Of a DNA stretch of 64,000 bases, positions 3,089-21,905 are shown one piece after another. Origin of the DNA: Thioalkalivibrio sp. ALJT (GTDB lineage: Bacteria; Pseudomonadota; Gammaproteobacteria; Ectothiorhodospirales; Ectothiorhodospiraceae). The position numbers were made by a program, and so were the translations under genes. Within the stretch, counting starts at the first letter, position 1. Every line of letters starts with the position of its first letter. The notes under the pieces were generated by a model. The model had not been told where the DNA came from and did no database searches. It worked only from the letters and a program-made list of their open reading frames with translations. Location of the stretch: positions 62,001 through 126,000 of the forward strand of contig NZ_KB907122.1 of assembly GCF_000381825.1 (NCBI RefSeq). Reading direction: 5' to 3'.

Positions 3089-3296
3089 GCCCCCCCTGAT
3101 GAACCGCTGAACAGGGCCATCCTGACCTTTTCAGCGCACGCGGCGCGGCATCGGCCGGTTTTGCTTTGCATGGGCCAGGAGGTTGGCCGCCAGGCTCGGA
3201 ATCCAGCACTGGCCATGGTCGGTTCCGGCGGTACATCCCTGTGCCACGGGGCATACCAGACGGACGGCCGCCGAACGCACAACAGGCGGCAGCCAA

Positions 3297-3314
3297 GTGT
3301 TATATTGTTTCATC
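3297..3314. promoter_or_regulatory. Possible Zur-like operator / -10 region directly before nicO
   Basis: The 18 bases before the nicO ATG read GTGTTATATTGTTTCATC. GTTATATTGTTTC agrees with the Zur half-site pattern GTTATAnTATAAC at most positions, and TATATT could serve as a -10 box for a nearly leaderless transcript. No Shine-Dalgarno sequence is visible. This is a visual match only. Confidence 0.3.
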
Positions 3315-6738: not shown

Positions 6739-7017
6739 CGGGCTAGCGGGCCATCTCGATTCACGACAAAGCCCGCTCAGAAGCGCGACGTAAAGCCTGA
6801 GCAGAAAAACGGGAAAGTCGGGGGATTTACAAGCGGCGCCGAGCAACCAGCAACCTCCCCCGCAAAACCCGGACGCAAACGCGTCTCGGACGCCCTCCCC
6901 CGGTTCAGCTCCCCTGCTGCCAATCTTCCTGTTAAACGACTTTGAATGCCTTCGCCGCTTCGCGCGCTCCGCGGTAAAAACATGCTGCAGAGCAGCGGAC
7001 GGGACCCACCACCAACG
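6739..7017. other. Intergenic region, no gene recognised
   Basis: This gap separates the convergent acyl-CoA synthetase and dsrE2-like genes. Apart from the terminator at 7018-7049 it shows no ORF with a plausible start and no obvious repeat. Confidence 0.4.
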
Positions 7018-7049
7018 AAAAAGGCCCCGCGGCGCGATGCCGCGGGGCC
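7018..7049 (-). terminator. Rho-independent terminator at the end of the leftward cluster
   Basis: On the minus strand a perfect 11-bp GC stem (7023-7033 with 7039-7049, five-base loop) is followed by TTTTT. It lies 28 bp beyond the stop of the DsrE2 gene and marks the end of the leftward gene block. Confidence 0.9.
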
Positions 7050-7077
7050 CTGAAGGCGCATCACACGCGCGGCCGGT

Positions 7078-7548
7078 TCAGATGAACAGGCAGATATCCG
7101 CCTCGCCCGCGAACTCGAAGAACGCCGCCGCCCCGGCGTACTCCACGCCGTCGATGAACTCGCTGGTGTCCATGTCGAAAAGGTCCACCGTCATCTGGCA
7201 GGCAATCATGCGTACCTCGGCCTCCTGACACAGTTCGCGCAGGTCGCCCAGATCCGAGACGCCCTTGGCCGCCATTTTCTTTTTCATCATCACGGTCATC
7301 ATCTTCTGCATGCCCGGCAGCGCCTGCAGCAGGACCGGCATGGGCATGGGCATCGGCATCCCCGGGTTACCCAGCGAGGTCACCTGCAGGTCCAGCTTCT
7401 TGCGCAGCAACTGCAGGCCGTAGAACGTGAAGAATACTTCGCAGTCATAGCCCAGCGCGGCCGCCGTGGAGGCCAGGATGAACGGAGGATAGCCCCAGTC
7501 CAGGCTGCCCTTCGTGGCAATGATGGCCATCTTCTTTTGATCACTCAT
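7078..7548 (-). CDS. DsrE2-like sulfur carrier family protein
   Basis: The 156-residue product belongs to the DsrE/DsrF superfamily and most resembles DsrE2. It starts with MAIIATKGSLDWGYPPFILA, has a cysteine in GYDCEVFFTFYG, and has the characteristic RMIACQMTVDLFDMD, where the cysteine is the likely persulfide carrier. A Met/Pro-rich segment (GMPMPMPMP) sits mid-protein and may contact membrane. DsrE2 proteins usually act with rhodanese and TusA in cytoplasmic sulfur transfer in sulfur oxidisers; neither is adjacent here. It is the last gene of an 11-gene leftward block. A GGAGG ribosome site precedes the ATG. Confidence 0.85.
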   Translation of the reverse strand: MSDQKKMAIIATKGSLDWGYPPFILASTAAALGYDCEVFFTFYGLQLLRKKLDLQVTSLGNPGMPMPMPMPVLLQALPGMQKMMTVMMKKKMAAKGVSDLGDLRELCQEAEVRMIACQMTVDLFDMDTSEFIDGVEYAGAAAFFEFAGEADICLFI

Positions 7549-7650
7549 GATTACTTTTCCTCCAAATGGTTAAAGGGGTTGCGCCCGCCAGACCCCCCAT
7601 CTGTCCGGGCAATCCTCAGTTCATTGAAACCGGCCGGCCGGTGCGTGCAT

Positions 7651-7794
7651 CTAACTCGATGTCTGACGCCCCTTGCGCCAGTCACGAATCAACGCACATC
7701 CGGCACAGACCCCGAGTGCCGCCATGCTGGCCCAAACCGAAATCGGGACCAGGATCATGGCCAGTACAAACATAATCCACGCCAGTATGGTCAT
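7651..7794 (-). CDS. Small membrane protein, 47 residues
   Basis: This ORF begins at an ATG at 7794, six bases after a strong AGGAGGAG ribosome site. The peptide starts MTILAWIMFVLAMILVPISV, one hydrophobic helix continuing to about residue 31, with two cysteines (GVCAGCALI) near its end. A short basic tail (RDWRKGRQ) follows. The helix-then-basic-tail pattern suggests an inner-membrane peptide with a cytoplasmic C-terminus. It lies between the dynamin-like GTPase and DsrE2 genes on the same strand. The CxxC pair could bind metal or form a disulfide. No family was recognised. Confidence 0.7.
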   Translation of the reverse strand: MTILAWIMFVLAMILVPISVWASMAALGVCAGCALIRDWRKGRQTSS

Positions 7795-7887
7795 CGTTCT
7801 CCTCCTGCACAACGCTTGCGGCCGGAAACCGCGCCCCGTTGTAGCCTTCGTGGTAGCTGCGAGCCGCTGTTGGAGGAGGTCTGCGAC

Positions 7888-9459
7888 CTACCCCTGGCGC
7901 TTCTCCGACGCCTCCGGCTCGACGTGGTCACGGGGCGGATCCATGCCCGGTGTCGGTTCCGCAGCCGCAGTCTCCTGCTGGGGCGGATCGTAGGCATCCG
8001 TGGCGGAGGCCCGGCCGCCCTCACGCGAAACCGGGCTTGCATCCACGAACTGGTTGTTCAAGCGCTGAATGTAAGCCTCGGCACGGTCACGCAGCTGGTG
8101 CAAGCGCCCGATCACCCTGCGGCCCATACCCAGCGGCGTGCGCCGCATCATCGGCCGCCACGGACGGGTATTCTTCTCGAAGGCCGCACGCCAGTTTCCG
8201 GCCGCAGTCTCGACAGGCAGGGAGCGGGCAATGCGCCGCGCGATCCAGCCCCGGTTGAAGAAGTGAATACCCGCCAGCACGATCGCCAGCACGGCCACTC
8301 CAAACCCGGTCAACATGGGTCGCTCACCCATGGCCTGCCAGGCTGAACCATCCACTAACGGCGTAACGCCGCCTGCAGTCTGGGACCCGACCACCACCGC
8401 GATCACTGCGACCAGCGCAAACATCCCGGCATCAAACTGCAGCACGCGCCGGCGCCAGTCACCAAGCGCCTTCTGCAACGCCGGCAAGGCATCCTTCTCG
8501 ATCGACTCGGCGATCGCCTGCAGCGAGCCGAGGATACGATAGGAACGCGACGAGCTGATTTCCTGGATCTTGGCGTGAATCTCTTCGCGATCGCGGCGGG
8601 ATTTCCCCTCAAAACGTTGCCGTACCTGCGGATCCTCGATCTCCACCGCTGCACTCTCGTTATAGAGGCAGTAGAACCGGCCCGTCGCATTGCCCTGGCG
8701 CACTACCGCACGCTGCCATGCGGACACGACTTCTTCGAGGTTGTCCTCGCGCCAGGTGGTGTCAATCTGGTTAAGCACAAAGACCAGCTTGGTGAAGTCG
8801 TTGCGCTCGGCAACGCGATTGACCAGATACTCGAGCGTATCCCGCATGGCCCCTGGTTCGGGATGGCGGGCGTCGAAAAACACCAGCACCAGATCCGACA
8901 GGTCAATGATGTGATCGGTCAACTGCAGAATGGCAGTGCGCTGCTCATCGGCATCGAATCCGGGCGAATCGATGATGATCCGACCACGCAGGCGTTCGGA
9001 CGGCGCGGTCTTCATCGCCAGGAAGTGGTCCACCGTACGCCCGCCACCGTCAGTCAGGCGTTCGATCTCGTCGGAAAAGCGATAGAACGGAAACCGCGGA
9101 TCGCCGTCCAGCGCAAGCCCCGGTAGCTCCTGAACGCGCCCGCTGCCCCCGTAGCTGATGACGGTGAATTTGTCATCTACGGCCTGCGAACCACTGCGTT
9201 GCACGGGCATGCCGACATATTCGTTGATGAAGGTCGACTTGCCGGCCGAGAACGTACCCAGCGTAGCGATCATCGGCCACCACGAGATGGTGAAGGCGTA
9301 AGATTCCTCTACAGGGTCCAGCAACCCCGTGGCATACCCGATCCGATCCAGGTTACGGAAAGGCTCCACGACACCCGTGAGGACTGGATTCTCTTCCGCC
9401 AGCCGATCGCTCAAAAGCTTGAGCTGTTTACGTACCCGAGGGCCAGGTCGATTGAACAT
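7888..9459 (-). CDS. Dynamin-like GTPase with two C-terminal membrane helices
   Basis: The product is 523 residues. The G domain has P-loop GTFSAGKST (about 68-76), switch/Walker B IIIDSPGFD (about 161-169), and VLNQID (about 228-233) as the base-specificity motif. A helical stalk region follows, then two hydrophobic segments (about 343-359 and 384-401) and a charged, Pro-rich C-terminal tail. This architecture is that of bacterial dynamin-family proteins, which remodel or tether membranes. It sits between a single-pass coiled-coil protein gene and a small membrane peptide gene. The family assignment is firm; the membrane it acts on is unknown. Confidence 0.85.
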   Translation of the reverse strand: MFNRPGPRVRKQLKLLSDRLAEENPVLTGVVEPFRNLDRIGYATGLLDPVEESYAFTISWWPMIATLGTFSAGKSTFINEYVGMPVQRSGSQAVDDKFTVISYGGSGRVQELPGLALDGDPRFPFYRFSDEIERLTDGGGRTVDHFLAMKTAPSERLRGRIIIDSPGFDADEQRTAILQLTDHIIDLSDLVLVFFDARHPEPGAMRDTLEYLVNRVAERNDFTKLVFVLNQIDTTWREDNLEEVVSAWQRAVVRQGNATGRFYCLYNESAAVEIEDPQVRQRFEGKSRRDREEIHAKIQEISSSRSYRILGSLQAIAESIEKDALPALQKALGDWRRRVLQFDAGMFALVAVIAVVVGSQTAGGVTPLVDGSAWQAMGERPMLTGFGVAVLAIVLAGIHFFNRGWIARRIARSLPVETAAGNWRAAFEKNTRPWRPMMRRTPLGMGRRVIGRLHQLRDRAEAYIQRLNNQFVDASPVSREGGRASATDAYDPPQQETAAAEPTPGMDPPRDHVEPEASEKRQG

Positions 9460-9484
9460 GCAGACTCCGTCAGTCTAGTCGTGA

Positions 9485-10006
9485 TCAACGCGGGTGGTAG
9501 GGTCCGGGTGAACCGCGCGCGGGCCCGCCCTGATCACTGAATGGGTTGAACATGTTCATCATACCCATTGGGGCACCCACATTGCGATTCAGGCTCCACA
9601 TATCATGCTGCATGCCCGTGATCGACCCCGCCATCACACTGGTATCGCGCGTCATCGAACCGATGTTGGCGTCCATCGAGTCGGTATTCGACGCAATGCC
9701 GACGATTTCATCGGTCATGTTGCGCATCGTGCCGCTGATCTCCGTCATCTGGTGATCCATGGAGTTCATATCAGCCGCGATGGAGGACATGTCACGATCC
9801 ACGACACGCGTCATCAGAGAGATCTCCTCGGTCAACTGGCTGACATCCCGAGTCAGGCTGGTGATCAGCCAGAAACCGTAGATCGCCAGGACCACGAAAG
9901 CCACCAGCGCGGCGTAGACAATCAATTCCACGCGTCGCGAGCGGGCGTCCGCCTCATCGGCCTCCTCGCGTACGGCGCTGAACTCATCGAGATTCGGGTT
10001 ACTCAT
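9485..10006 (-). CDS. Single-pass membrane protein with Met-rich coiled coil
   Basis: The 173-residue product has an acidic cytoplasmic N-terminus (SAVREEADEADARSRR), one transmembrane helix (about 26-48, VYAALVAFVVLAIYGFWLI) and a long heptad-like segment. In that segment Met, Ile and Ser recur every three to four residues (ISLMTRVV, MNSMDHQMTEI, MRNMTDEIVGI). The tail is Gly/Pro-rich. It looks like a chemoreceptor-type helical stalk without signalling domains. The ATG at 10006 has AGGGG upstream and is preferred to the TTG before it. The neighbours are DUF302 and the dynamin-like GTPase, suggesting a scaffold or partner role. No characterised family was recognised. Confidence 0.75.
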   Translation of the reverse strand: MSNPNLDEFSAVREEADEADARSRRVELIVYAALVAFVVLAIYGFWLITSLTRDVSQLTEEISLMTRVVDRDMSSIAADMNSMDHQMTEISGTMRNMTDEIVGIASNTDSMDANIGSMTRDTSVMAGSITGMQHDMWSLNRNVGAPMGMMNMFNPFSDQGGPARGSPGPYHPR

Positions 10007-10045
10007 CAAACGCCCCTGAAACTAGTGATAATGAGGTCTCCCCCG

Positions 10046-10633
10046 CTAGAACGCACCCTCGGCGGCACGATCGATGATTTCCTCCAGCGCTTCCTTTACG
10101 AACACCGCCTGCTCATGCAGTTCGTCGGGCAACGGGCGGCCGCCGTGGATCATCGGCTCCAGATCCAGGGTCATCAGCCACAGATTGCCCTCGGCATCTT
10201 CCTGCAGCACGATCCTGCAGGGCATATAGGCCGCCATGGCCGGGCTGTAGCTCACCATCTGCGCCGCGATGGCGACATCGCAGAACATGTAAATCTTCAG
10301 GAACGGGAAATCCTCTCCGGTGACGCTACGCACTTCCTCGCCCATCGGCAGCTCACCGACATTGCGAACATTCAGCTCGTTCGCCACCAGGCGCAGAACA
10401 TCTTCCACCTCTTCAATGCTCAGGCCTGCCTCCACCCGCCGCTTGTACACCATGGCTTCCGCGGCATCTCCAGTCTCCAGCACCGTCCGTGCCATCTGCG
10501 CATAGACGGTCGGTGCCTGGGAATCCAGCGAACGCGCCTGCCCAACGTAGGGTTCAAAGACAAATATGGCATAGGCCACCCCGGCCAGCGCCAGGAAACC
10601 GAACAAGGCCAGGACATTGCGGATCACTCGCAT
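10046..10633 (-). CDS. DUF302 domain membrane-anchored protein
   Basis: The 195-residue product starts with a signal anchor (ALFGFLALAGVAYAIFVF), then a variable linker and a DUF302 domain recognisable from YSPAMAAYMPCRIVLQED followed by NLWLMTLDLEPMI. DUF302 folds are small alpha/beta domains often found in sulfur- and metal-handling contexts; their chemistry is not established. Cysteines in MFCDVA and MPCRI are the notable residues. The gene has same-strand neighbours within about 60 bp on both sides, so an operon is likely. Confidence 0.8.
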   Translation of the reverse strand: MRVIRNVLALFGFLALAGVAYAIFVFEPYVGQARSLDSQAPTVYAQMARTVLETGDAAEAMVYKRRVEAGLSIEEVEDVLRLVANELNVRNVGELPMGEEVRSVTGEDFPFLKIYMFCDVAIAAQMVSYSPAMAAYMPCRIVLQEDAEGNLWLMTLDLEPMIHGGRPLPDELHEQAVFVKEALEEIIDRAAEGAF

Positions 10634-10690
10634 GGGACTCTCCTTCTTGCCTTACAGCATCCTGACAACCCCGGATGCATGAGGTCTTGG

Positions 10691-11326
10691 CTATTGACGC
10701 CGGCCACCGAACACGGCCACGGCGAGCGCATCGAGCTCGGCCGCGGCCTTGCCGCGCGGCTCCAGCTCGTGAACGGACAGTCCTTCACTGAACGAACGTC
10801 GAAATGCCATGCGTTGTTTCAGACGCGGCTGCAACAACCGAACGCCCTCGATCTGCTCGAGGGCCGAACAGGTCTCGTCGCTTTCCCGGACCGCCGTGTG
10901 AGTATCCGCTCGGTTGATGAATGCGAGAATTTCCGGTCTGTTGCGGTTCCCGCGTTGCTCCAGAATGCGCGTCACGAAACGGTAGGTCGCCCATACATCC
11001 GCCTGACTGGGCGGCACCGGGATCAGCACCCGGTCGGCACCCTCCACCGCGGCCATCAACGCAGCCATGTCCGACGCGCCGACATCGATGAGGATCTCGT
11101 CGTAGTCACCTTCGTGAGCCTGTGCGGACTCGAGGTCGGACGTCACATCGAGAGCGGGTTCGAAGCCCTCCTCCTGGCGCACTTCCAGCGCATCACTGAG
11201 CGTGCACTGGGGGTCCAGGTCCACCGCCAGGACCCGCCGACGGCCTTCCAGCAACCAGAGGCCGAGATTGAAGGCTACGGTACTCTTGCCGGTCCCCCCC
11301 TTCAGATTGGCAACGACCGTTCGCAT
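10691..11326 (-). CDS. ParA/MinD-type ATPase
   Basis: The 211-residue product carries the deviant Walker A motif NLKGGTGKST (residues 7-16, with signature Lys9), the AVDLDPQCTLSDAL segment, and ILIDVGASD as the Walker B region. ParA-type ATPases form dynamic gradients on nucleoid or membrane and position plasmids, chromosomes, carboxysomes, chemoreceptor arrays or flagella. No ParB or oriT-like site is nearby, so a cargo-positioning role is more likely than plasmid partition. It is the first gene after the mid-operon terminator. Confidence 0.88.
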   Translation of the reverse strand: MRTVVANLKGGTGKSTVAFNLGLWLLEGRRRVLAVDLDPQCTLSDALEVRQEEGFEPALDVTSDLESAQAHEGDYDEILIDVGASDMAALMAAVEGADRVLIPVPPSQADVWATYRFVTRILEQRGNRNRPEILAFINRADTHTAVRESDETCSALEQIEGVRLLQPRLKQRMAFRRSFSEGLSVHELEPRGKAAAELDALAVAVFGGRRQ

Positions 11327-11348
11327 GCTGCATCTCCTTGGAACGCTG

Positions 11349-11381
11349 CGGACTGCCGACTACGCGGCAGCAGGCAGTCCG
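11349..11381 (-). other. Inverted repeat between terminator and parA-like gene
   Basis: CGGACTGCC at 11349-11357 pairs with GGCAGTCCG at 11373-11381 around a 15-base loop. It lies in the leader just upstream of the ParA gene, after the terminator on that strand. It could be an operator or a leader hairpin. Confidence 0.4.
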
Positions 11382-11389
11382 GAACGCTC

Positions 11390-11421
11390 AAAAACGGGGC
11401 CTGCCCGAAACGGGCAGGCCC
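11390..11421 (-). terminator. Terminator / attenuator after the sulfur-globule-like gene
   Basis: An 11-bp perfect GC stem (11397-11407 with 11411-11421, loop AAA on the plus strand) is followed on the minus strand by C, G and TTTTT. It lies 16 bp after the stop of the 134-residue Gly/Tyr-rich gene and before the ParA gene. It would lower transcription of the downstream six genes or split the block. Confidence 0.85.
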
Positions 11422-11436
11422 AATCGAGGGATGGAC

Positions 11437-11841
11437 TTAGTTGCCCTCACCCTGCGGCTGCTGCGGCATCGGACCCTGCGGGCCATAGCCGTAGTAACCC
11501 GGGCCGTAGCCGTAGCCGTGACGCGGATAGCCATAACCACGGCCGTAGCCGTCGCCATAACCATGACCGTGACCATAGCCATGACCACGACCGCGACCGC
11601 TGGCGGAGAAGTCAAAGGCACCGTCGCCCATCATGTCGCTGAACATGTCGCCCATGCCGTAGTTACGACCGGAACCGTAACCCGGGCCACCGAAGAACGG
11701 CATGCCATAACCATAACCCGGGCCGTAGTGACCGGGGCCGTAGCCATAACCCGGGCCGCCCCACTGGGCGGAGGCCATCATCGGGGCGGCCAGGCCACCC
11801 AGGGAAACGGCGAGAACGGCTGCTTTCACAAACTTATTCAT
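11437..11841 (-). CDS. Secreted Gly/Tyr/His-rich protein, sulfur-globule-protein-like
   Basis: The 134-residue product starts at the ATG at 11841 behind AGGAGG. A signal peptide ends near MMASAQ (residue 26). The mature part is almost wholly Gly-Tyr-Pro-His repeats, with a central MGDMFSDMMGDGAFDFS followed by SGRGRGHGYGHGHGYGDGYG. This composition and the D-F-x-x-SGRGRG-(x-GYG)n layout resemble sulfur globule envelope proteins of purple sulfur bacteria. The assignment rests on pattern, not alignment. A second gene sharing the motif lies two genes upstream. A strong terminator follows, consistent with high expression. Confidence 0.65.
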   Translation of the reverse strand: MNKFVKAAVLAVSLGGLAAPMMASAQWGGPGYGYGPGHYGPGYGYGMPFFGGPGYGSGRNYGMGDMFSDMMGDGAFDFSASGRGRGHGYGHGHGYGDGYGRGYGYPRHGYGYGPGYYGYGPQGPMPQQPQGEGN

Positions 11842-11924
11842 GGTACTACCTCCTGAAGGAGTCATGCCCTCGAAATCGAATTACGCGCAGACGACGAGGG
11901 CTTCTCGAACGCGCGCCTTACTTG

Positions 11925-12491
11925 TCAGAGGAACGGGAATCCGCCCATTCCCCAGGGGAGGACCGGGAACGATCCGCCCAGTCCCGGGACGCCGGGCATT
12001 CCCGGAGTCCCGTATGGATTCCCCCACGGCATCCCGCCGGGGGGTTGGAACAAAGGCACACCGGGCACGTTGTATGGATAACTCAACGGAGAACCCGAAG
12101 GGTGGCTCAGCTGAGAACCCGAAGGGTGGCTCGATGGAGCGCCCGAAGGGAAGCTCAGTGAAGAACCCAACGGGTAGCCCGTCGACGGCGCACCCCATTG
12201 GTAACCCCATGGAACACCCGTCAACTGGCCCGGAACCAGTTGCGCAGGAGAGGACACGTCTTCGGACTCAACCCGTCGCGACGGGTCGTAATCTCGATCC
12301 GGAAACCGCCCACGCAGCTGCTCCGGCGCCGCACGTTGCATATCCTGCACACCGGAGGCCCACGGGTTTTGACGTTCGCTTGCAACCAGCTCAGCGCCGG
12401 TCCCCAGGAATCCGGCGGTCGCCACGACCCCGAATACCAGGAGCTGTCGCCCCCAAAGGGGCTTCATTTGCCCGGACTGTCTGCCTAGCAT
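11925..12491 (-). CDS. Secreted Pro/Ser/Gly-rich repeat protein of unknown function
   Basis: The 188-residue product begins at the ATG at 12491, with GGAGG eight bases upstream. A hydrophobic leader (RQLLVFGVVATAGFLGTGAEL) directs export. The mature part has a charged first half and then repeats such as GSSLSFPSGAPSSHPSGSQL, built on Ser-x-Pro-Ser-Gly units, ending in a Gly/Pro/Phe/Trp-rich tail (GMPWGNPYG, VPGLGGSFPVLPWGMGGFPF). It is low-complexity and lies between the two sulfur-globule-like genes, so it may be part of the same extracytoplasmic material. No family was recognised. Confidence 0.6.
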   Translation of the reverse strand: MLGRQSGQMKPLWGRQLLVFGVVATAGFLGTGAELVASERQNPWASGVQDMQRAAPEQLRGRFPDRDYDPSRRVESEDVSSPAQLVPGQLTGVPWGYQWGAPSTGYPLGSSLSFPSGAPSSHPSGSQLSHPSGSPLSYPYNVPGVPLFQPPGGMPWGNPYGTPGMPGVPGLGGSFPVLPWGMGGFPFL

Positions 12492-12567
12492 GGCGAACTG
12501 CCTCCGTCTCGCGTCCACTGCGACGGACGCCGCGGCGTCCGTCCCTTCGTGACCACTGATCCCTGGA

Positions 12568-13233
12568 TCAGTAGTCACCGCCTTCTTCCATGGACTCGCG
12601 ACGTTCGCGCATCATTTCCATGCGCCGCTCGCGCTGACGCTCCATCTCTTCCTTGAACGCCTCACGGCCCGCTTCCATGGCCTTCTGACGCGCCTCGCGC
12701 ATCGCCTGCATCTCTTCCATGCGTTCCTGGCGCTCAGCGTGCTGGGCCTTGATACGATCACGCATCTCTTCCGGCATGTCTTCCGGCAGGTTTTCCGGAT
12801 CGAACTCCGGCATCTGGCCGTAGCGCGGCTGCATCATCTCCGGGGCGGCATAGCCTTCACGCTGCCACTCGGGGGCGTAACCACGACCGTAACCGTAACC
12901 CGGGTAGCCGTGCCCGTAACCCTGCCCGTAACCATCGCCGTAACCACGCCCATAACCCCGGCCATGGCCGCGCCCGGACATGCCGAAGCTGAAGTCACCT
13001 GACGCATCACGTTCCTGCACCATGCCCGCACCGGGATGCATGCCCATACCGTGACGCTGGTACGGGGCATAACCGTAAGGACCCGGGACCGGACCCTGCT
13101 GGCCCGCTGCGGGGCCCTGGCCATAACCCTGTTCCTGTTCCTCGGCCTGGGCCACGCCCAGAGCCAGAACGGACGCTACTGCGGCGCCGGCCAGCGTAGT
13201 GGTGATCATTCGAATGTTGAATCGCTTCTTCAT
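12568..13233 (-). CDS. Secreted Gly/Tyr-rich protein with charged helical tail, sulfur-globule-like
   Basis: The 221-residue product starts behind AAGGAGG. The signal peptide ends near GVAQA (residue 30). Residues 79-118 hold GDFSFGMSGRGHGRGYGRG followed by further Gly-Tyr-Gly units, the same motif as the 134-residue neighbour. From about residue 150 the protein changes to a Met/Glu/Arg-rich segment (MEEMQAMREARQKAMEAGRE, EEMERQRERRMEMMRERRE) predicted to be a long charged helix. The combination suggests a structural protein able to self-associate. It directly follows the RND pump gene (31 bp gap). Confidence 0.65.
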   Translation of the reverse strand: MKKRFNIRMITTTLAGAAVASVLALGVAQAEEQEQGYGQGPAAGQQGPVPGPYGYAPYQRHGMGMHPGAGMVQERDASGDFSFGMSGRGHGRGYGRGYGDGYGQGYGHGYPGYGYGRGYAPEWQREGYAAPEMMQPRYGQMPEFDPENLPEDMPEEMRDRIKAQHAERQERMEEMQAMREARQKAMEAGREAFKEEMERQRERRMEMMRERRESMEEGGDY

Positions 13234-13264
13234 CGGAAACCTCCTTGAGGTCTTGGTTGCATGT

Positions 13265-16200
13265 TCATTTCAGTCGAATTCCGCGCCGCGAGCGGCCCTT
13301 GGCGGTTGTTGCCGACTTGCCACCCGTCTTCGCGGTACCGCCGCTCTCCTTGCGGCCGCTATTGCTGCTCGCAGCTGGGGCTGCTTTTTTAACCCCACCG
13401 GTCATTTTTTGATCGTTCTCTGTCTCTGGCATCGATTCTCTTTTAGCATCGCTACCATCTCCCGCACCTTCGTCAGCGCCGCCGGCTTCGGCGTTGCCTG
13501 CAGGGGCCTGTCCGGTTTCCCCGGCGGTCGTATCAGACGCGGGAGCCGCGTCGGGGACAGGTCGCGCTCCACGGTCACCTTCAGCCATACGGGACTGCGG
13601 CTCCCCGACCGTACCAGAAGGGCTACCGGTGCTGCCGACTTCAGACGACCGGCCCGCGTTATCGCCGGCTGCCGGCGGGATTGCCTCCGCGGTCGACTGC
13701 GGAGCGTCGTGCGCGGCGGACTCCGACGCCCGTGGTGCCGTGTCGGAACCGTCCGGCGACTGCGGGCGCTCGGGGGAGTCGGCACGCGTCGAGACATCAC
13801 CGGGTCCAGCATCCGTGGCGGTCGCACCTGACCCGCCGGACCCGCCCTGCGGCCCTCCGCGACCAGACGGACCTGACCCGGACGGTCCACCTGCACCTCC
13901 GCCTGCCGGGGGCGGGGTGTCGTCATCGTCACCACCGCCACGGCGCTGATTCACGAAGGCACGGACGAGGCGCCACAGTGCCAGCATCAGATCACGCAAG
14001 CCGGCCAGGATTGCCAGACCCAGCGACTTCATGGAAGCCCCCGCGAACTGAACAGCCTTGGTCACCGGACCACCGTCGGCGGGGCCAAAGAAATCGCGCT
14101 CGCCGGCTCCTGCGCCCGGACCTCCACCAGTGCCATTGTCACCATCGGTGGCAGAGACCGCCACCGTCTCACCATTCGCGTCCACGGTCGCCGGGACAAA
14201 CGCGCGTTGGCCAGAAATACAGCCCAGCGGGATCACCACCAGGGTCAACAAAGTGGCGACTACCGTACCAAACATCAGCGAGATCGCCATACCCTGGAAG
14301 ATCGGGTCAAACAGGATGACACTGGAACCGGCCAGCAGCGCCAGCGCGGTGATGATGATCGGGCGGGTGCGCGCCTGGCATGCCATGATCATCGCGTCAC
14401 GCACATCATAGCCCTCGTTCACCGCCTGGCGGCCGAAATCCACCAGCAGTATCGAGTTGCGCACGATAATCCCTGCCAGAGCGATAAACCCGATCATTGA
14501 GGTTGCGGTAAATTCCGCGTTCATCAGCCAATGGCCGGGAATGATGCCGATCAGCGTCAACGGGATCGGGGCCATGATGATGCCGGGCAGCACGAAGTTA
14601 CCGAACTCCCAGACCACGAGCATGTAGATCAGAATCAGCGCAATGGCAAACGCGATGCCCATGTCGCGGAAGGTCTCATAGGTCACCGTCCATTCACCGG
14701 CCCACTCGAAGGCGGTCGCGCCATCATTGGGCGGCGGACCCAACCAGTGCGGCTGTACCTTGCTGCCATCAGGCAGGCGGTAGTCCTCCAGTTGTTCCTG
14801 GACTTCCAGCATGCCGTATACGGGTGCAGCCAGGCGTCCAACCACTTCACCGGTGACGTATTCCACGGGCCGCAGGTTCTTGTGGTAGATCGGCTCATCC
14901 TGCGGGCGCTGGACGAATTCGCCCAGCTCACCCAGCGGGATGGATCCACCCTGCGCGGTTGCAACCGGAATCATCTCCAGCTGCCGAATGTCGTTACGTA
15001 TCTCCTTCGGGAGGCGCATCTCGATCAGGTGTGGCTCCACCAGGGATTGTGCCTTGATGTCCCCGAGGATCTGGCCCCCAATGGCGGCTTCCAGTGTCTG
15101 GTTGACGGCCGCCACCGTGACGCCGCGGCGCAAGGCCTTGTCACGGTCCACCTCGAAGTGCCAGACGCGGTGCGGTGCCTGCAGGAAGCTGTCCACATCA
15201 TCCACATGTTCGGCCTGCGCGAACATGCCTTCGAGATCCCGGGCGACCGCCCGCCGGGTAGCCGCGTCAGGCCCGTACACCTCGGCCACGATCGACTGTA
15301 GCACCGGCGGTCCCGGCGGCATTTCGACGACCTGAATACGTGCGCCGGCGGCATCCGCCAGCGGGGTCAGGCGGGCGCGCGCTTCAGTGGCAATCTCATG
15401 GGAGGTGCGGCTGCGATCCCCCTTGTCCACCAACTGGACCTGGATATCGCCCTGCCAGGGTTTGTCACGCAGATAGTAGTGACGGACCAAGCCATTGAAG
15501 TTGAATGGCGACGCGGTACCTACATAGGACTGCAAACCGACGACTTCGTCCATGTCCCGCAACACCCGCGCCATGTCATGGCTCAGGGTCGCGGTCTCGG
15601 TCAGGGCCGTGCCTTCGGGGAAGTTCACCATCACCTGGAACTCGGGTTTGTTGTCCAGTGGCAGCATCTTCACGCGCACGTCGGTGGTCATGAACAGGCT
15701 GACCATCAGGAAGAACATCACGATCACGCCGATCAGGAAACCGTAACCGCGCACGGGGTTGTCGGCCAGGCCCGGAATCGCCGTGCGGTAGAACTTGCCC
15801 AGCGCCTCCGCCTGACGGTGTTCCTTGTCCGTTGCCTTTTCCAGGTACGCCATGCTGGGACGCAGGCGCTGGGTGAGCCATGGGGTAAACACGAAGGCCG
15901 CCACCAGCGAGAACAACATCGCGACCGACCCCAAAACCGGGATCGGCTGCATGTACGGCCCCATCATGCCGGAGACGAAACCCATCGGCAGCAACGCCGC
16001 GATGACGGTAAAAGTCGCCAGGATGGTCGGATTGCCGACCTCGCGCACCGCATCCACGGAGGTCTCGGTGTCGATACCGCGCTTCATCAGCCAGCGCCGG
16101 TAGATATTCTCTACGACGACGATCGCATCATCGACGAGGATGCCAATGGAGAAGATCAGCGCAAACAGGCTGACACGGTCGATGGTGTAGCCCAGCACCC

Positions 16201-17428
16201 ACGCGCTGAATACGGTAAAAAGGATCACCACGGGGATGACAATCAGCACTACCAGTGCAGCACGGAGACCAAGGAACAACCCGACCAGGATAGTCACCGC
16301 GAAGGTGGCGATGAAAAGCTTGAAGATCAGTTCGTTGACCTTCTCGTTGGCGGTCTTGCCGTAGTCGCGCGATACGACGACCTCGACATCATCCGGAATC
16401 ACCGTGCCCTTGAGGTCCTCCAGCCGGTCAAGCACGCCATTGGCGACCGTAACGCCGTTGCTGCCGGGCTTCTTGGCGATGGCCAGAGTCACCGCGGCAG
16501 CCCCCTCCGGCGCGGCATCGGGATCGAGCGCCGCCGGACCGGAGTAGTGCCGTACGAACCGTTCGAGTTCGCCCGGACCGTAGCTCACATTGGCGACATC
16601 GCTCAGGTAGACCGGCTGGCCGTCGCTGACCGCAACCAGGAGCTGTTCCAGATCCGAGGCTCCGGTAAAGAAATTCCCGGTATACACGGCGGTGCTCGAA
16701 CCACCACTTTCGATATGGCCTGCGGTCCCCTCCACGTTCGCGGCCTGAACCGCACCGGCAATCTGCTCCTGGCTGACACCGAAGCTGGTCAGGCGTTCCG
16801 GCAGCAAGTCGATACGCAGGCGTTCGGCACGCCCGCTGACCACGAAGCTCTGACTGGTATCGGGAACCTCGTTGAGCTGCTGTTGGGCGTCCAGTGCGAT
16901 CTGGCGCAGCAGGGCATCATCCACCTCGTGGGACCACAAGGTCAGGTTGACCACCGGCACGTCATCCGCGCCCTTGGCCTTGACCATCGGCTCACTGACG
17001 CCCGGCGGCATCAGGTCTCGATTCGCGAGCAGTTTGTCGTGCACCTTGACGATGGAGGACTCCATGTCCTCGCCAACATCAAATTGCACCGTGACCATTG
17101 CCTCACCGCGATGCGAGACGGAGTAGACGTTATCGACCCCCGAGAGTTCGCTCATCAGCCGCTCCAGCGGCCGGGCGGCGAGGCTGGCAACCTGCTCTGA
17201 CGGCACCCCCGGATACGCCACCATGATGTCCACCATGGGGACGGAGATCTGCGGATCCTCCTGGCGCGGCGTGACCATCAGACCGAGGATGCCGATCGCA
17301 ATACTCGCGAGCAGCAACAGCGGCGACAGCGGCGAATGAATGAACGCCGCCGCCATACGCCCGGCGATGCCCAGATCTCCGTGCTTGTCCTGGAGATCAC
17401 GATCGGATTGTTGTTGATTTTCTGACAT
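13265..17428 (-). CDS. RND-family inner-membrane transporter with about 320-residue C-terminal extension
   Basis: The product is 1387 residues. Residues 1-1068 form a complete AcrB/CusA-like RND protein with the N-terminal helix, MVTPRQEDPQISVPMVDI, the first periplasmic porter domain, the helix bundle with FSIGILVDDAIVVVENI, and the second half ending near VVATLLTLVVIPLGC. After this, where normal family members stop, come about 320 residues. They include a possible amphipathic helix (GASMKSLGLAILAGL), then Gly/Ser/Pro/Asp-rich disordered sequence and a Lys/Arg-rich end (KGRSRRGIRLK). The extension should be cytoplasmic. It is 54 bp downstream of its MFP partner; no outer-membrane channel gene is nearby. 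Confidence 0.88.
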   Translation of the reverse strand: MSENQQQSDRDLQDKHGDLGIAGRMAAAFIHSPLSPLLLLASIAIGILGLMVTPRQEDPQISVPMVDIMVAYPGVPSEQVASLAARPLERLMSELSGVDNVYSVSHRGEAMVTVQFDVGEDMESSIVKVHDKLLANRDLMPPGVSEPMVKAKGADDVPVVNLTLWSHEVDDALLRQIALDAQQQLNEVPDTSQSFVVSGRAERLRIDLLPERLTSFGVSQEQIAGAVQAANVEGTAGHIESGGSSTAVYTGNFFTGASDLEQLLVAVSDGQPVYLSDVANVSYGPGELERFVRHYSGPAALDPDAAPEGAAAVTLAIAKKPGSNGVTVANGVLDRLEDLKGTVIPDDVEVVVSRDYGKTANEKVNELIFKLFIATFAVTILVGLFLGLRAALVVLIVIPVVILFTVFSAWVLGYTIDRVSLFALIFSIGILVDDAIVVVENIYRRWLMKRGIDTETSVDAVREVGNPTILATFTVIAALLPMGFVSGMMGPYMQPIPVLGSVAMLFSLVAAFVFTPWLTQRLRPSMAYLEKATDKEHRQAEALGKFYRTAIPGLADNPVRGYGFLIGVIVMFFLMVSLFMTTDVRVKMLPLDNKPEFQVMVNFPEGTALTETATLSHDMARVLRDMDEVVGLQSYVGTASPFNFNGLVRHYYLRDKPWQGDIQVQLVDKGDRSRTSHEIATEARARLTPLADAAGARIQVVEMPPGPPVLQSIVAEVYGPDAATRRAVARDLEGMFAQAEHVDDVDSFLQAPHRVWHFEVDRDKALRRGVTVAAVNQTLEAAIGGQILGDIKAQSLVEPHLIEMRLPKEIRNDIRQLEMIPVATAQGGSIPLGELGEFVQRPQDEPIYHKNLRPVEYVTGEVVGRLAAPVYGMLEVQEQLEDYRLPDGSKVQPHWLGPPPNDGATAFEWAGEWTVTYETFRDMGIAFAIALILIYMLVVWEFGNFVLPGIIMAPIPLTLIGIIPGHWLMNAEFTATSMIGFIALAGIIVRNSILLVDFGRQAVNEGYDVRDAMIMACQARTRPIIITALALLAGSSVILFDPIFQGMAISLMFGTVVATLLTLVVIPLGCISGQRAFVPATVDANGETVAVSATDGDNGTGGGPGAGAGERDFFGPADGGPVTKAVQFAGASMKSLGLAILAGLRDLMLALWRLVRAFVNQRRGGGDDDDTPPPAGGGAGGPSGSGPSGRGGPQGGSGGSGATATDAGPGDVSTRADSPERPQSPDGSDTAPRASESAAHDAPQSTAEAIPPAAGDNAGRSSEVGSTGSPSGTVGEPQSRMAEGDRGARPVPDAAPASDTTAGETGQAPAGNAEAGGADEGAGDGSDAKRESMPETENDQKMTGGVKKAAPAASSNSGRKESGGTAKTGGKSATTAKGRSRRGIRLK

Positions 17429-17482
17429 CAGGCCTGAAACATCCCTTGTCGATCCCGTGTTCGCATCACCTGGCGCATCCGC

Positions 17483-18664
17483 TTACATCCGATGCCAGGG
17501 GTCAGATTCCCGCGAGCCCTGACCGGAGGTGCCGCGCCCCAGGGACTGGCCGGAACGGATACTCGCATCCGGCCGTGCCAGGATCTGCATACCCTCTTCC
17601 AGGCCCGAAGTCACCACCACCTGGTCACCCCGGGCGCCACCCAGACGTACCATGCGCACACGGACATGGCCGTCGCGATCGAGTACTGCCACGCGCGGCA
17701 GTGCACCACCAGGAATCAGGGCGGAACGCGGTATCACGACCCGGCCACTACGGACGGCATTCTGAGGCAAATGCACGGCGGCGTGCATGCCCGGGCCGCC
17801 GCGCACACCCTGAGGCAGATCAAACTTGACCGTTACGGTGTGGCGCTGGGGATCTGCCAACGGGAATATGCGCGCAACCCGAGCTTCGACCTCGTCTCCG
17901 GTATCCAGACGCACCCGTACGTAGTTGCCCTCCTGCAGGCCTGCAACCAGCCGAACGGGCACCTGGGCCTCCACACGCAGAAACTCGACGTGCCCGAAGC
18001 GCACCAGCGGCTGTCCCGGCTGGACCGTGTCACCCACTTCCACATGTTTGTGCATCACCAGGCCGTCGAAAGGCGCCTCGGACCGGGTGTCACGGATCGC
18101 CGCATCCAGTTCGCTGACGCGAGCACGTGCCTGTTCCCAGCGCGCCTGCGCCTGATCCACCCCAATATAACGGGAGAAGAGATCGGTACGGCGCTCCAGA
18201 TCAGTATCACCGATTCCCATCGTATCGCCCATTGGCTGGGTGATCAGCTGATCGAACATCGAAGGGATACCCATACCGGGCATCTGACTCAAACTCTCCG
18301 ATCGGGGCGCTGCCATCTCGCGGCCATACTGCATCTGGGCTTCACGAATGGCCGCCTCGGCGGTGCGCATTTCCGCCTGCGCGGCCAGGCGCTGGGCGCG
18401 CAGGCGATCGTCACTGATGGAGACCAGCAGCGCATCCTGCTCGAAACGGTCACCCTCGGCGCCGGCCACCTCGGTCACCCGCCCGGCGGATTGCGCGGTC
18501 AGGGTCACCTCGCGAAACGGGATTACCGTACCGCTTACGACCTGAGTCGCAGCGCGATCCGATTCGACAGTCACCACCTGACTGGAAGCCTGGGCGCCCA
18601 GCGGGCCGGCCAGTATCAGGGCTACCGCCCCACGCAGAAAGATCCGGAATATTCGAGCAGGCAT
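17483..18664 (-). CDS. Periplasmic adaptor (membrane fusion protein) of RND system
   Basis: The 393-residue product has a signal peptide (VALILAGPLGAQA), a barrel-sandwich hybrid domain split by a helical hairpin, with halves VIPFREVTLTAQSAGRVTEV and RSEAPFDGLVMHKHVEVGDT. It continues with beta-barrel and membrane-proximal domains. The hairpin carries a Met/Pro-rich stretch (SLSQMPGMGIPSM, ITQPMGDTMGIGD) not usual in adaptors. The C-terminus is Gly/Ser-rich. It is the first gene of the leftward block, about 200 nt downstream of the sigma-54 promoter. Confidence 0.88.
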   Translation of the reverse strand: MPARIFRIFLRGAVALILAGPLGAQASSQVVTVESDRAATQVVSGTVIPFREVTLTAQSAGRVTEVAGAEGDRFEQDALLVSISDDRLRAQRLAAQAEMRTAEAAIREAQMQYGREMAAPRSESLSQMPGMGIPSMFDQLITQPMGDTMGIGDTDLERRTDLFSRYIGVDQAQARWEQARARVSELDAAIRDTRSEAPFDGLVMHKHVEVGDTVQPGQPLVRFGHVEFLRVEAQVPVRLVAGLQEGNYVRVRLDTGDEVEARVARIFPLADPQRHTVTVKFDLPQGVRGGPGMHAAVHLPQNAVRSGRVVIPRSALIPGGALPRVAVLDRDGHVRVRMVRLGGARGDQVVVTSGLEEGMQILARPDASIRSGQSLGRGTSGQGSRESDPWHRM

Positions 18665-18786
18665 GTTTCGTCTTCACCTCGCGCCGATGACCGCAATGGT
18701 AGAAAAAATCGGGCCGGGGGTTGTCGCAACGAACCGGGCACCGAGCAGAGACACTGCCACAAAATGGCATACGCCTGCAGGGGAGC

Positions 18787-18800
18787 CGACAAATGTCGGC
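18787..18800. promoter_or_regulatory. Inverted repeat in leader of the MFP gene
   Basis: GCCGACA and TGTCGGC, separated by AA, form a near-perfect palindrome around 18785-18800, inside the predicted 5' leader of the MFP transcript. It could be a second operator or a small hairpin. Confidence 0.35.
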
Positions 18801-18876
18801 CCTGCAGAAGTGGCAGCGTCGCGATCAGTAAGTGTGGCCATCGACGTGAATGTATAAGAACTCATGGCCAGTCACA

Positions 18877-18892
18877 AGCAACGCATATGCCA
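18877..18892 (-). promoter_or_regulatory. Sigma-54 (-24/-12) promoter for the leftward block
   Basis: On the minus strand the sequence is TGGCATATGCGTTGCT. This matches the consensus TGGCACGnnnnTTGCW at all key positions, with GG and GC separated by exactly ten bases. Transcription would start near 18866, giving a leader of about 200 nt before the MFP gene. A divergent sigma-54 activator gene and its probable binding sites lie immediately upstream. Confidence 0.85.
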
Positions 18893-18953
18893 ACATTACG
18901 GTGTTCTTATTAAACAATCAGTTAATCAGGATTCTCTAATCTTCGGCAAGCCA

Positions 18954-18965
18954 GTGTTGCAACAC
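18954..18965. promoter_or_regulatory. Activator site 1 (GTGTTGCAACAC palindrome)
   Basis: Perfect 12-bp palindrome centred about 93 bp upstream of the predicted sigma-54 start. It is the nearest of three copies and lies at a normal upstream-activating-site distance. Confidence 0.75.
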
Positions 18966-19018
18966 CCCGGTTTCGCGCTATAACCGGGTTAGGGACTGGC
19001 AAATCGGGCATCTGGGGA

Positions 19019-19030
19019 GTGTTGCAACAA
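19019..19030. promoter_or_regulatory. Activator site 2 (GTGTTGCAACAA)
   Basis: Second copy of the palindrome with one mismatch at the last base, centred about 158 bp upstream of the predicted sigma-54 start and 19 bp from site 3, near two helical turns. Confidence 0.72.
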
Positions 19031-19037
19031 GAACCCC

Positions 19038-19049
19038 GTGTTGCAACAC
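19038..19049. promoter_or_regulatory. Activator site 3 (GTGTTGCAACAC palindrome)
   Basis: Third, perfect copy, about 177 bp upstream of the predicted sigma-54 start and 50 bp before the ATG of the activator gene, so it may also govern autoregulation. Confidence 0.75.
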
Positions 19050-19099
19050 TCGCCCGCTTCCGCCACCCCGTCCAACAAAAAAAAACGAAAGGAGAGGGG

Positions 19100-20488
19100 A
19101 TGACCACAACCGAGCTAGCCGAGATCTGTATCCGGCACAGTCGCGACCCGCACCTCGTCAGCGATGCCCAGGGCCGCGTGCTCTTCACCAATCCGGCCTT
19201 GCGGCAAACCCTGCAGATCCCGGAGAAGGCCCCGTTAACCCTGGACCAACTGGGGCCACTTAATCTTGAGACGCACCTGAAAGAGGCTGCCATGGCTGCA
19301 GGCGAACCGTCCGACGCGAGCCAGGCAACAAGCCCACTGCAGTTTTCGCTGATGGCCAAACTGGCAAACGACACCCTGCCGCTGGAGGTCATCAGCCAGC
19401 CGCTGCACTTGAATGACGACGCGCGTGTACTGCGCTTGATTACTCTGCAACCCCAGCGCCGTCGCACCATCGCGGTCGAGGCCCTTCGCGAGGATGGCCA
19501 CGAGGGACATGATGGCGGCCATTTCCACTCCCACGACGAGGCATGCCGCAGCGCATTGCAATTCGCCCGTCGCATCGCGGCCAGCGATGTGCGCGTAATG
19601 CTGCTGGGCGAATCCGGGACCGGCAAAACCCGCCTGGCGCGCGCGATCCACCGTTCGAGCAGCCGTGCCAGTGCGCCGTTCGTTGAGATTAACTGTGCGG
19701 CGATCCCCGAAGAACTCCTGGAATCCGAACTCTTCGGCCATGCCCGCGGGGCCTTCTCCGGTGCCGTCAACGACCGCATTGGGCGCTTCGAGGCAGCCGA
19801 CGGTGGCACTCTGTTTCTGGACGAAATCGGCGAAATGAGCCCGCGCCTGCAGGCCAAACTGCTGCGGGCGGTTCAGGACGGGGCATTCGAACGCGTCGGC
19901 GAGAACCAGACCCGTCAGGTGGACGTGCGAATTCTCTCCGCCTCCAACCAGGACTTGCGCGCCCGCGTAGAAGCCGGCGAATTTCGCACTGACCTGTTCT
20001 ATCGACTCGCGGTCGCCACGGTTGAAATGCCGCCTCTGCGCGACCGTCCGAAGGATCTCGCGGCAGCCCTCGAGACGTTCCAGGTACGCACCGGCATCCG
20101 CATCTCGCAACGCCTGAAAAAGCGGCTGCAGGCATACTCCTGGCCGGGCAACTTCCGCGAGATGGAGAACATCTTCGAGTGCCTTACACTGCACGCCCGT
20201 GACGGCCACGTGGATGATTTCCCCCTGCCCGAGCCAGTCCGTGTCGACTCCGGGGCCATCGGTGCCGTCCCTTGCGACGACCATCATCCGACCAGCGCCG
20301 CTGCAAACGAGGCAAGCGGGGCCGGAGAATCCCGGAACCAGCCGGCCCCGGCAAACGAACACCCGGAGGCTCGACGCCTGCGCGAGGCGCTGGTGGCCCA
20401 TGCCGGGAACCGTTCGCAGACAGCGCGCGCTCTGGGCATGGATCGCAGCACGCTCTGGCGCAAGATGCATCGCTATCAGCTGGTCTGA
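19100..20488 (+). CDS. Sigma-54-dependent transcriptional activator (PAS-AAA+-Fis HTH) with His-rich linker
   Basis: The 462-residue product has an N-terminal PAS-like domain (about 10-120), then a linker [18 protein letters not shown] (residues 131-148) with six histidines. The AAA+ domain carries Walker A GESGTGKT (170-177), the sigma-54 contact loop as GAFSGA (217-222; usual form GAFTGA) and Walker [12 protein letters not shown] (235-245). A Fis-type helix-turn-helix closes it ([20 protein letters not shown]). The ATG at 19100 has GGAG upstream. It is divergent from the MFP-RND block and its presumed sites lie between. The His cluster may sense metal, redox state or pH; the PAS ligand is unknown. 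Confidence 0.92.
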
Positions 20489-20540
20489 CGCACCAGCCAA
20501 GAAAGAGGCCCCGCGGGTGATCCACCTGCGGGGCCCGGGG

Positions 20541-20700
20541 GCCTGTGGGGGCTGGGACAGATCCGCTGCGCGTGCGGGACAGCAGACCCTTTTTCCGCTC
20601 TCTCTCGTTACATCACCCCACTATGCGCCTCGGGAGACCGAAACGAGCCTCGCTCCCCTGCCCAACGCCCGCAACGATCGCCCAAACCCGACCGTTTCCT
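20541..20700 (+). repeat. Dispersed palindromic element, copy A
   Basis: This copy shares with the four others the core GATCCGCTGCGCGTGCGGGA, then CTCTCTCGTTACAT, then TGCGCCTCGGGAGACCGAAA, and ends in the CCCAAACCCGAC arm. The ends are complementary and the whole element can fold on itself. It lies between the activator gene and the TolA-like gene, and its right end abuts the latter's stop codon. Confidence 0.85.
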
Positions 20701-21547: not shown

Positions 21548-21654
21548 GCTTCACCTTTGCCGATTGATCCATGGCGAAGAGTCCCCCCTTCGCACAATCC
21601 TGTGCCTTATCCTGCACCGATCGGGCCTCTGCTTCCAGCACAAACCGACCGCGA

Positions 21655-21817
21655 GAGCCTGTCGGATTTGCGACGGATCGGCTGCGCGTGCGGGACAGCC
21701 GCCCCTTTTTCCGCTTCCTCTCGTTACATAGTCCCCACCATGCGCCTCGAGAGACCGAAAACAGGGCCTCACTCTCCTGAACTGCGCTCGCGACAATCAC
21801 CCAAACTCGACAGGCTC
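21655..21817 (+). repeat. Dispersed palindromic element, copy B
   Basis: This is the best-preserved copy. Its ends are GAGCCTGTCGGATTTG (21655-21670) and CCAAACTCGACAGGCTC (21801-21817), an inverted repeat with 14 of 16 positions complementary. The interior also pairs imperfectly. It sits in the 358-bp gap upstream of the TolA-like gene. The rest of the gap has no gene. Confidence 0.88.
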
Positions 21818-21905
21818 CCGGGCAGTGGCAACAAGACGGCATCTTAGGGAAACATGGATGGATGTACATACTCGACGCCGTGTCGCCGCCAGCGATGTAC
21901 ACCGG

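Follow-up and report, generated by a model that had tools for sequence, protein, structure and literature searches.

The 64,000 bp window analysed here, from the 2.66 Mb genome of Thioalkalivibrio sp. ALJT (contig NZ_KB907122.1, positions 62,001 to 126,000), contains a block of 11 leftward open reading frames (ORFs; 18664 to 7078) that very probably belongs to a sulfur globule system, a link which is strong but correlative. Taking the full mechanism as a package and weighing it against its rivals, the block probably encodes a machine that spans the envelope, produces periplasmic sulfur globules, coats them, and sets their position, and we infer ParA docking and membrane shaping as steps in its operation. 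A preliminary description of this DNA had hypothesized that the genes build, enclose, or position an inclusion that is sulfur-related or extracytoplasmic, a proposal which the comparative data favor. The genes of the block, with the gene names used below, are as follows (5′ to 3′).

17483–18664, minus strand: membrane fusion protein (MFP), the periplasmic adaptor of a resistance-nodulation-division (RND) pump (mfp; TIGR01730)
13265–17428, minus strand: RND permease (rnd; PF00873, residues 26–1068)
13265–14212, minus strand: C-terminal tail of the pump, 315 low-complexity residues
13268–13288, minus strand: RRGIRLK, residues 1381–1387, the proposed ParA-docking motif
12568–13233, minus strand: secreted-looking Gly-rich protein with a sulfur globule protein stretch (sgp1; PF17228)
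11925–12578, minus strand: Gly/Pro/Ser-rich protein of 217 a.a., secreted-looking, no family matched
11437–11865, minus strand: Gly/Tyr-rich sulfur globule protein (sgp2; PF17228)
10691–11326, minus strand: ParA ATPase with a deviant Walker A motif and signature lysine (parA)
10046–10633, minus strand: DUF302 protein with a hydrophobic N-terminus (PF03625, 50.5 bits against a cut-off of 23)
9485–10009, minus strand: bitopic coiled-coil protein (coil; alignment of 24 sequences)
7888–9459, minus strand: dynamin-like GTPase with a transmembrane hairpin (dlp; PF00350)
7651–7794, minus strand: membrane protein of 47 a.a. (small; 13 of the 14 fetched relatives share 77–91% identity)
7078–7548, minus strand: DsrE2 sulfur carrier (dsrE2; NF047629, 289.6 bits against a cut-off of 210)

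Both globule-like proteins pass the PF17228 cut-off of 26.7 bits (31.4 bits in sgp1 and 36.2 bits in sgp2; a homologous cluster, L174, reaches 62.4 bits), and sgp2 is composed of 31% Gly and 12% Tyr. Across 303 genomes of the class, we scored the pump type (61 genomes), dsrB (100 genomes at >170 bits, comprising 96 above the cut-off and 4 partial), the GTPase (75), PF17228 sulfur globule proteins (SGPs; 48), and, added later, the coil (66). SGPs and the pump occurred together in 43 genomes (Fisher p = 4e-32, a value that ignores kinship), and SGPs were present in none of the 216 genomes with neither the pump nor the GTPase. The genome lists behind these co-occurrence counts were transcribed manually. 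Within the dsrB-positive genomes, SGPs were found in 39 of 53 with the pump versus 4 of 47 without it, indicating that the block follows globule proteins and not sulfur oxidation alone. The coil and the pump shared 60 genomes, the coil occurring alone in six and the pump alone in one (seven discordant; 60 of the 67 with either). At the family level, every one of the 27 SGP families was also a pump family (37 pump families out of 173, the highest family label seen), and this count, along with the tree test described below, answers the kinship problem of the p-values in part. All eight pump genomes without dsrB carried soxB, a figure that comes without a baseline.

The globule-like proteins of the block resemble the Allochromatium vinosum proteins SgpA-D (the Gly/Tyr type of which falls under PF17228) in being secreted-looking, low-complexity, and Gly/Tyr-rich. 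The accessible text on A. vinosum places the SgpD gene beside a hydrophobic/amphiphilic exporter, an arrangement shared with the block; however, sgpD is described there as its own transcription unit, and that text names no ParA, GTPase, or coil partner (PMC10386293). In Beggiatoa D-401, a transposon in a globule protein gene left cells that stored no sulfur and showed no lithotrophic growth, according to the portion of the study available (PMC7356093). Four sgp genes, and no dynamin, are listed in the available part of a paper on SUP05 (PMC6509183).

The notion of the block as a lone oddity of one genome was rejected, given it recurs in the genus and in other lineages. The preliminary description had suggested looking for the same gene order in relatives, with scattered homologues counting against a single system; the order recurs in Thioalkalivibrio and other sulfur oxidizers, and the homologues are mostly clustered, with exceptions in G024, G130, G222, G328, and G276. 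Among 14 fetched relatives, nine keep mfp-rnd-sgp1-parA-coil-dlp-small-dsrE2, two are cut by contig ends, two (G024 and G016) have only dlp-small-dsrE2 at the locus, and one, of another genus, has only dlp. The pump type is present in 25 of 30 genus genomes (G016, G019, G025, G039, and the 67% complete G028 being those without it), and the GTPase of the block is 89% identical to that of Thioalkalivibrio strain ALJ16. Further afield, 80 named loci were chosen by GTPase similarity among at least 557 matches, which biases GTPase counts there; the pump is also present in 44, including those of Thiothrix, Cocleimonas, Leucothrix, Thiofilum, Sedimenticola, and a Lucinoma symbiont, and many of the rest are short contigs. 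The 54 pump loci outside Thioalkalivibrio hold mfp (49), dlp (43), parA (41), coil (40), a tetratricopeptide repeat (TPR) gene (32), DUF4412 (18), SGP (16), and DUF302 (13), the DUF4412 and SGP counts resting on models built in this analysis. The gene order is kept across distant families, and the core, made up of the MFP, the RND pump, the globule-type proteins, ParA, the coil, and the dynamin-like GTPase, recurs in sulfur-oxidizing Gammaproteobacteria.

Two variations on this layout were noted. At the locus in Thioalkalivibrio strains ALJ21 (L054:7465–9786) and ALJ3 (L064:7500–9813), there is no pump, ParA, or coil (ParA and the coil were not sought genome-wide), and globule-like secreted proteins and the TPR gene are retained beside dlp-small-dsrE2. 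In other lineages, a DUF4412-type, periplasmic-looking protein with weak MucB/LolA likeness lies between rnd and parA (L161:10312–11094 and similar), suggestive of lipid or hydrophobe handling.

The pump pairs a recognizable MFP (161.4 bits against the TIGR01730 cut-off of 94.9) with an RND permease (503.5 against 28 bits) and forms a distinct type, members in the class sharing at least 52% identity, compared to at most 46% for the other RND matches listed. It shares the permease domain and MFP with tripartite AcrB/MexB-type pumps but differs in that no outer-membrane factor was recognized in the block and in its long tail, which comprises about 150–370 low-complexity residues across homologues. 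In the window, the permease runs on after residue 1072 for 315 such residues, ending in RRGIRLK. The strict pattern for this motif, extended a single time, on sight of L041, to accept T or R in the final position, was found in 64 of 74 pump ORFs, always within 23 residues of the C-terminus. A relaxed pattern, RGI[RQK]L, was picked after four strict exceptions were seen, and both counts are therefore given; among 9133 non-pump ORFs (1.25 million residues), the strict pattern occurred three times, all in pump-tail pieces, and the relaxed pattern five times. Pump copies without a local parA in L213 and L220 carry an ISGIGPK helix-hairpin-like segment in place of RRGIRLK. The window also encodes an ordinary RND permease (58596–61841, a 1102-a.a. 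frame), 43% identical to the pump of the block.

The motif and a local parA tend to change together on the pump tree. Over 88 loci, with duplicates and loci with <5500 bases downstream left out, the strict motif and parA were both present in 60, the motif alone in four, parA alone in four, and neither in 20; with the relaxed pattern, which loses L164 (RKGIRLK) and L177 (RRGIRIK), these counts were 63, 3, 1, and 21, respectively. The four parA-only tails end in near-variants (TRGIRLK, KRGIKLK, RRGIRLN, and WRGIRLN), and a ParA of at least 200 bits is encoded elsewhere in each of the genomes of the four motif-only loci. ParA lies away from the pump in G130, G222, G328, and G276. No ParA of this type was found at E ≤ 1e-20 in the neither-feature genomes G126, G148, G154, G186, G223 (72% complete), G250, and G264, and only weak matches (92–94 bits) were found in G270. 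The counts (both, motif only, parA only, and neither) were 52, 1, 2, and 8 in coil-positive loci and 51, 0, 1, and 5 in GTPase-positive loci. In an independent-pairs test on a tree of pump cores with the tails removed, parA changed in the same direction as the relaxed motif in seven of 10 pairs and in the opposite direction in none (p = 0.016); the strict motif gave, on average, 5.8 pairs in the same direction versus 0.3 in the opposite direction (median p = 0.031, range 0.016–0.45).

The ParA of the block has the hallmarks of its family, with KGG[TS]GKST, D36/D38, and D81 invariant in all 16 sequences; at 138.2 bits, it is below the cut-off of 180 bits of the NCBIfam ParA_partition equivalog (NF041546), and is thus related to, and not filed as, that equivalog. 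The termini of RND permeases face the cytoplasm, so a basic peptide flexibly tethered on that side is in keeping with a ParA partner. For other ParA partners, the use of a positively charged, disordered N-terminus is reported in the accessible part of one paper (PMC10241942). From the co-variation observed, the chance that the pump tail is the ParA partner, through a presumed binding, appears to us about even. We advance with slightly less assurance than this the wider proposal of a ParA system for a periplasmic organelle, in which the disordered cytoplasmic tail of the pump (RRGIRLK) would be the adaptor and the transporter itself the cargo, served by a dedicated dynamin-like GTPase. The block resembles the McdAB system, which positions carboxysomes, and other cargo systems of the ParA/MinD kind, as described in the same partial source (PMC10241942), in having a small ParA with a deviant Walker A motif encoded beside its presumed cargo; the candidate partner would likewise have a basic, flexible end. 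It differs in that this presumed partner end belongs to an integral-membrane transporter, whose C-terminal tail it is, and in that the cargo is periplasmic. No McdB-like gene was recognized, no search aimed at McdB having been made.

The GTPase passes the Dynamin_N model (PF00350, 48.1 against 27 bits), and its G1, G3, and G4 motifs (GTFS.GKS, DSPG, and N..D) are invariant in an alignment of 56 sequences, as is a DARHPEPGAM stretch. The best solved relatives in a profile search were EHD proteins (E 2e-6). An AlphaFold2 model built on the 56 sequences (predicted local distance difference test, pLDDT, 77.9), which replaced a poor model on 10 close sequences (pLDDT 56.5), displays a long helix running into a hydrophobic hairpin. 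With this model, Foldseek placed EHD4 nearest (E 2e-11; TM-score 0.48 by query and 0.63 by target, a moderate whole-chain similarity), followed by bacterial dynamin-like proteins, IniA, mitofusin, and BDLP. The protein thus shares a Dynamin_N domain and predicted fold with EHD ATPases and bacterial dynamin-like proteins (BDLP, IniA, and the Campylobacter pair), while its short helical part with a transmembrane hairpin and its invariant DARHPEPGAM set it apart. The GTPase was rejected as the best marker of the block, given it occurs without the pump or dsrB. In Magnetococcales and Nitrosomonas (L107, L119, L116, and L128), it is found without a pump nearby, which hints at a wider role.

The coil protein comprises a short N-terminus, one transmembrane segment, a Met-rich coiled coil, and a C-terminal MNxFxP-type motif. 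SgpD was considered as a homologue and rejected, since SgpD as published, with regularly spaced prolines and a signal peptide in the text available, does not match (PMC10386293). Tandem coil paralogs of 182 and 174 a.a., the first ending MRMFNQFNPFW, occur on contig 4 of the genome of the window (L184:4163–5241), after a 755-a.a. sensor-like ORF and near cytochrome-like ORFs, and coil-family matches also occur as neighboring pairs in other genomes. In many lineages, a transmembrane protein with a TPR-like C-terminus sits between parA and the coil gene; its counterpart in the window lies beyond the activator gene described below.

20699–21547, minus strand: protein with a transmembrane segment, an acidic linker, and a TPR-like C-terminus, counterpart of the TPR gene of other lineages

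This was the sole match at E ≤ 1 (E 2.5e-8) among 384 window ORFs to a model of the TPR C-terminus. It has an AYW...GELGN pattern in common with the TPR proteins of other lineages, and a Pfam scan of it found no TPR. The label "SCP2-like" for a 131-a.a. gene upstream of mfp in other lineages was rejected, having no Pfam family behind it.

The block is flanked by predicted control elements, listed here with the hairpin inside it.

19100–20488, plus strand: divergent sigma-54-dependent activator (PF00158, 228.5 bits; PF02954 helix-turn-helix, 45.2 bits)
18955–18964, 19020–19029, and 19039–19048: palindromes TGTTGCAACA, proposed activator sites
18877–18892, minus strand: sigma-54 promoter-like site TGGCATATGCGTTGCT, a near-consensus sequence
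11397–11421, minus strand: terminator-like hairpin in the sgp2/parA gap (11 pairs, 10 G-C)
7021–7051, minus strand: Rho-independent terminator (13 pairs, 11 G-C)

All 11 ORFs claimed in the preliminary description are present on one strand, behind the near-consensus sigma-54 site that it reported (TGGCATATGCGTTGCT, 18892–18877) and ahead of the strong terminator (7051–7021). Its gaps of 25–110 bp were nearly right, one pair overlapping by 11 bp instead (intergenic distances of 54, 31, −11, 59, 110, 57, 36, 25, 93, and 102 bp in block order). As for its view of the block as one unit, the boundaries and strand agree, but the internal hairpin (11421–11397) weakens a strict single operon. That hairpin went unnoticed in the preliminary description, as did the divergent activator gene, the three palindromes, and the transmembrane TPR gene. 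Judged by sequence, with a GG-N10-GC site, an activator gene, and repeated sites upstream, the block appears to be a sigma-54-dependent operon. A sigma-54 pattern stands at the equivalent place in the promoter regions of four of nine relatives (L035, L036, L037, and L039) and was not found in those of the other five (L040, L041, L042, L043, and L046); the exact TGTTGCAACA palindrome is present in seven of the nine. Three of the five TGTTGCAACA palindromes in the genome stand before the sigma-54 site of the block, and no sigma-54 pattern was found within the 3 kb fetched around each of the other two, so no wider regulon was found. A sigma-70 scan of 6500–20000 found none, and Rfam at gathering scores gave nothing within 6500–22500. 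A terminator scan of 6500–20000 returned 15 terminator-like sites versus 8.7 expected, and the two of the block, at 13 and 11 pairs, exceed all the others in length by a wide margin. For the gap separating sgp2 from parA, one hairpin was found in the window versus 0.1 expected. Counting the window, 14 of 15 loci have a hairpin in this position, a locus count made without a shuffle control. The hairpin may act as an attenuator, through which coat proteins would be made in excess of the products of the positioning genes.

Assembled, these parts suggest the following course. When reduced sulfur is present, the activator would bind the TGTTGCAACA palindromes and switch on the sigma-54 promoter. 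The MFP-RND pump would move a hydrophobic substrate into or within the periplasm, most likely zero-valent sulfur/polysulfane or a globule-surface lipid, and, going by their family, the Gly/Tyr proteins would coat the globule. The coil and transmembrane TPR proteins may scaffold the site across the inner membrane, which the dynamin-like GTPase, judging from its fold and kinship, could shape around the globule. Bound to the nucleoid, ParA would hold the tails by their RRGIRLK ends, so that the sites are spaced out and divided among the daughter cells, and DsrE2, as its family suggests, would take sulfur for cytoplasmic oxidation.

Several observations weigh against this reading. Regarding the globule link, PF17228 has no match in 18 of 61 pump genomes, although the model may miss other globule proteins; just 19 of the 48 SGP genomes have an SGP within 12 kb of the pump or GTPase (a minimum, given many short contigs); and one paper, in the text available, states that sulfur globule proteins are absent from Ectothiorhodospiraceae (PMC8877833). 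No outer-membrane channel was recognized by Pfam and NCBIfam in the ten block proteins scanned, the 47-a.a. protein being outside the scan. The GTPase is absent from 12 of 61 pump genomes and is therefore not obligatory, and 26 genomes have the GTPase but no pump, with dsrB missing as well from 18 of these, which implies wider uses. Within the genus, G016, G019, G025, and G039 (all ≥99% complete) keep the GTPase and have no pump of this type, and in G024, the pump (86%) is on a different contig from dlp-small-dsrE2. As for docking, G061 is a true exception, with ParA, TPR, and coil present and no motif in either fetched pump; the ParA contig of G199 ends before any pump; the strict pair test with parA as the starting trait gave a median p of 0.06; and the N-terminus of the window coil is acidic (−4), unlike a typical ParA partner.

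The alternative that survives best keeps the same machine and has the coil or TPR protein engage ParA, with the tail binding nucleoid DNA or cytoplasmic sulfur carriers. Lys-rich N-termini in some coil proteins (L099, L102, L113, and L114), the short, basic N-terminus of the window TPR protein, and the gene content of G061 all fit it; the motif nonetheless follows parA even within the coil-positive and GTPase-positive loci, and we regard this version as unlikely. We think it rather more unlikely that the block serves sulfide-stress efflux, with the MFP-RND pump exporting a toxic by-product (metal sulfides or organic persulfides) and the globule proteins merely co-induced. By sequence, the pump core is an ordinary AcrB/MexB-type permease, and an Azospira sulfide:quinone oxidoreductase operon with an MFP and multidrug efflux pump is highly expressed in sulfide oxidation, its deletion leaving the oxidation rate unchanged, according to the accessible part of that study (PMC5358917). 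Such efflux, however, leaves ParA, the coil, TPR, and the GTPase unexplained, along with the tracking of parA by the tail motif and the link between SGPs and the pump in dsrB-positive genomes.

The hairpin at 11421–11397 also allows for two separate, adjacent units, a pump/globule operon ending there and a ParA-DUF302-coil-GTPase set for cell division or chromosome placement. Its recurrence in 14 of 15 loci fits such a boundary, and both the GTPase found without the rest of the block and the split contigs of G024 point the same way. Set against these are the joint occurrence of the coil and pump in 60 of the 67 genomes with either, the order kept across distant families, and the tendency of the pump tail to change with parA; a partial terminator would also be expected inside an operon needing coat proteins in excess, and we judge the division into two units improbable. 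Finally, a system that exports an extracellular matrix or S-layer, and does not serve sulfur storage, would suit the secreted low-complexity proteins and the sulfur excretion reported for many relatives in the family (PMC8877833, text seen in part), but is highly improbable given the PF17228 matches, the dsrB/soxB association, and the presence of the block in a metagenome-assembled genome named T. paradoxus (L070), a species that stores sulfur intracellularly according to the available portion of one report (PMC5328954).

Returning to the globule machine, coated globules and ParA positioning are each already known; their union, with a transporter as the adaptor, would be new. No description of this gene set was found in the literature searched, which covered few subscription papers, was available in part, and was not searched for the motif. 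The globule-formation literature surveyed, again as far as its accessible text goes, centers on coat proteins and does not address placement or inheritance. If the proposal is true, nucleoid-based positioning is coupled to sulfur storage across a membrane, and ParA positioning extends from cytoplasmic bodies to a periplasmic store, in a gene set that spans filamentous sulfur bacteria, clam symbionts, and soda-lake strains. It would also matter for biological gas desulfurization, where Thioalkalivibrio-type cells make the sulfur.

Two minor observations concern the surroundings of the block. DUF302 is encoded at four further places in the genome of the window (contigs C4, C6, and C10; L002–L005), so the DUF302 protein of the block has paralogs, and downstream of the block, at 3183–4526, lies a membrane-transport-like ORF with a large His-rich stretch.

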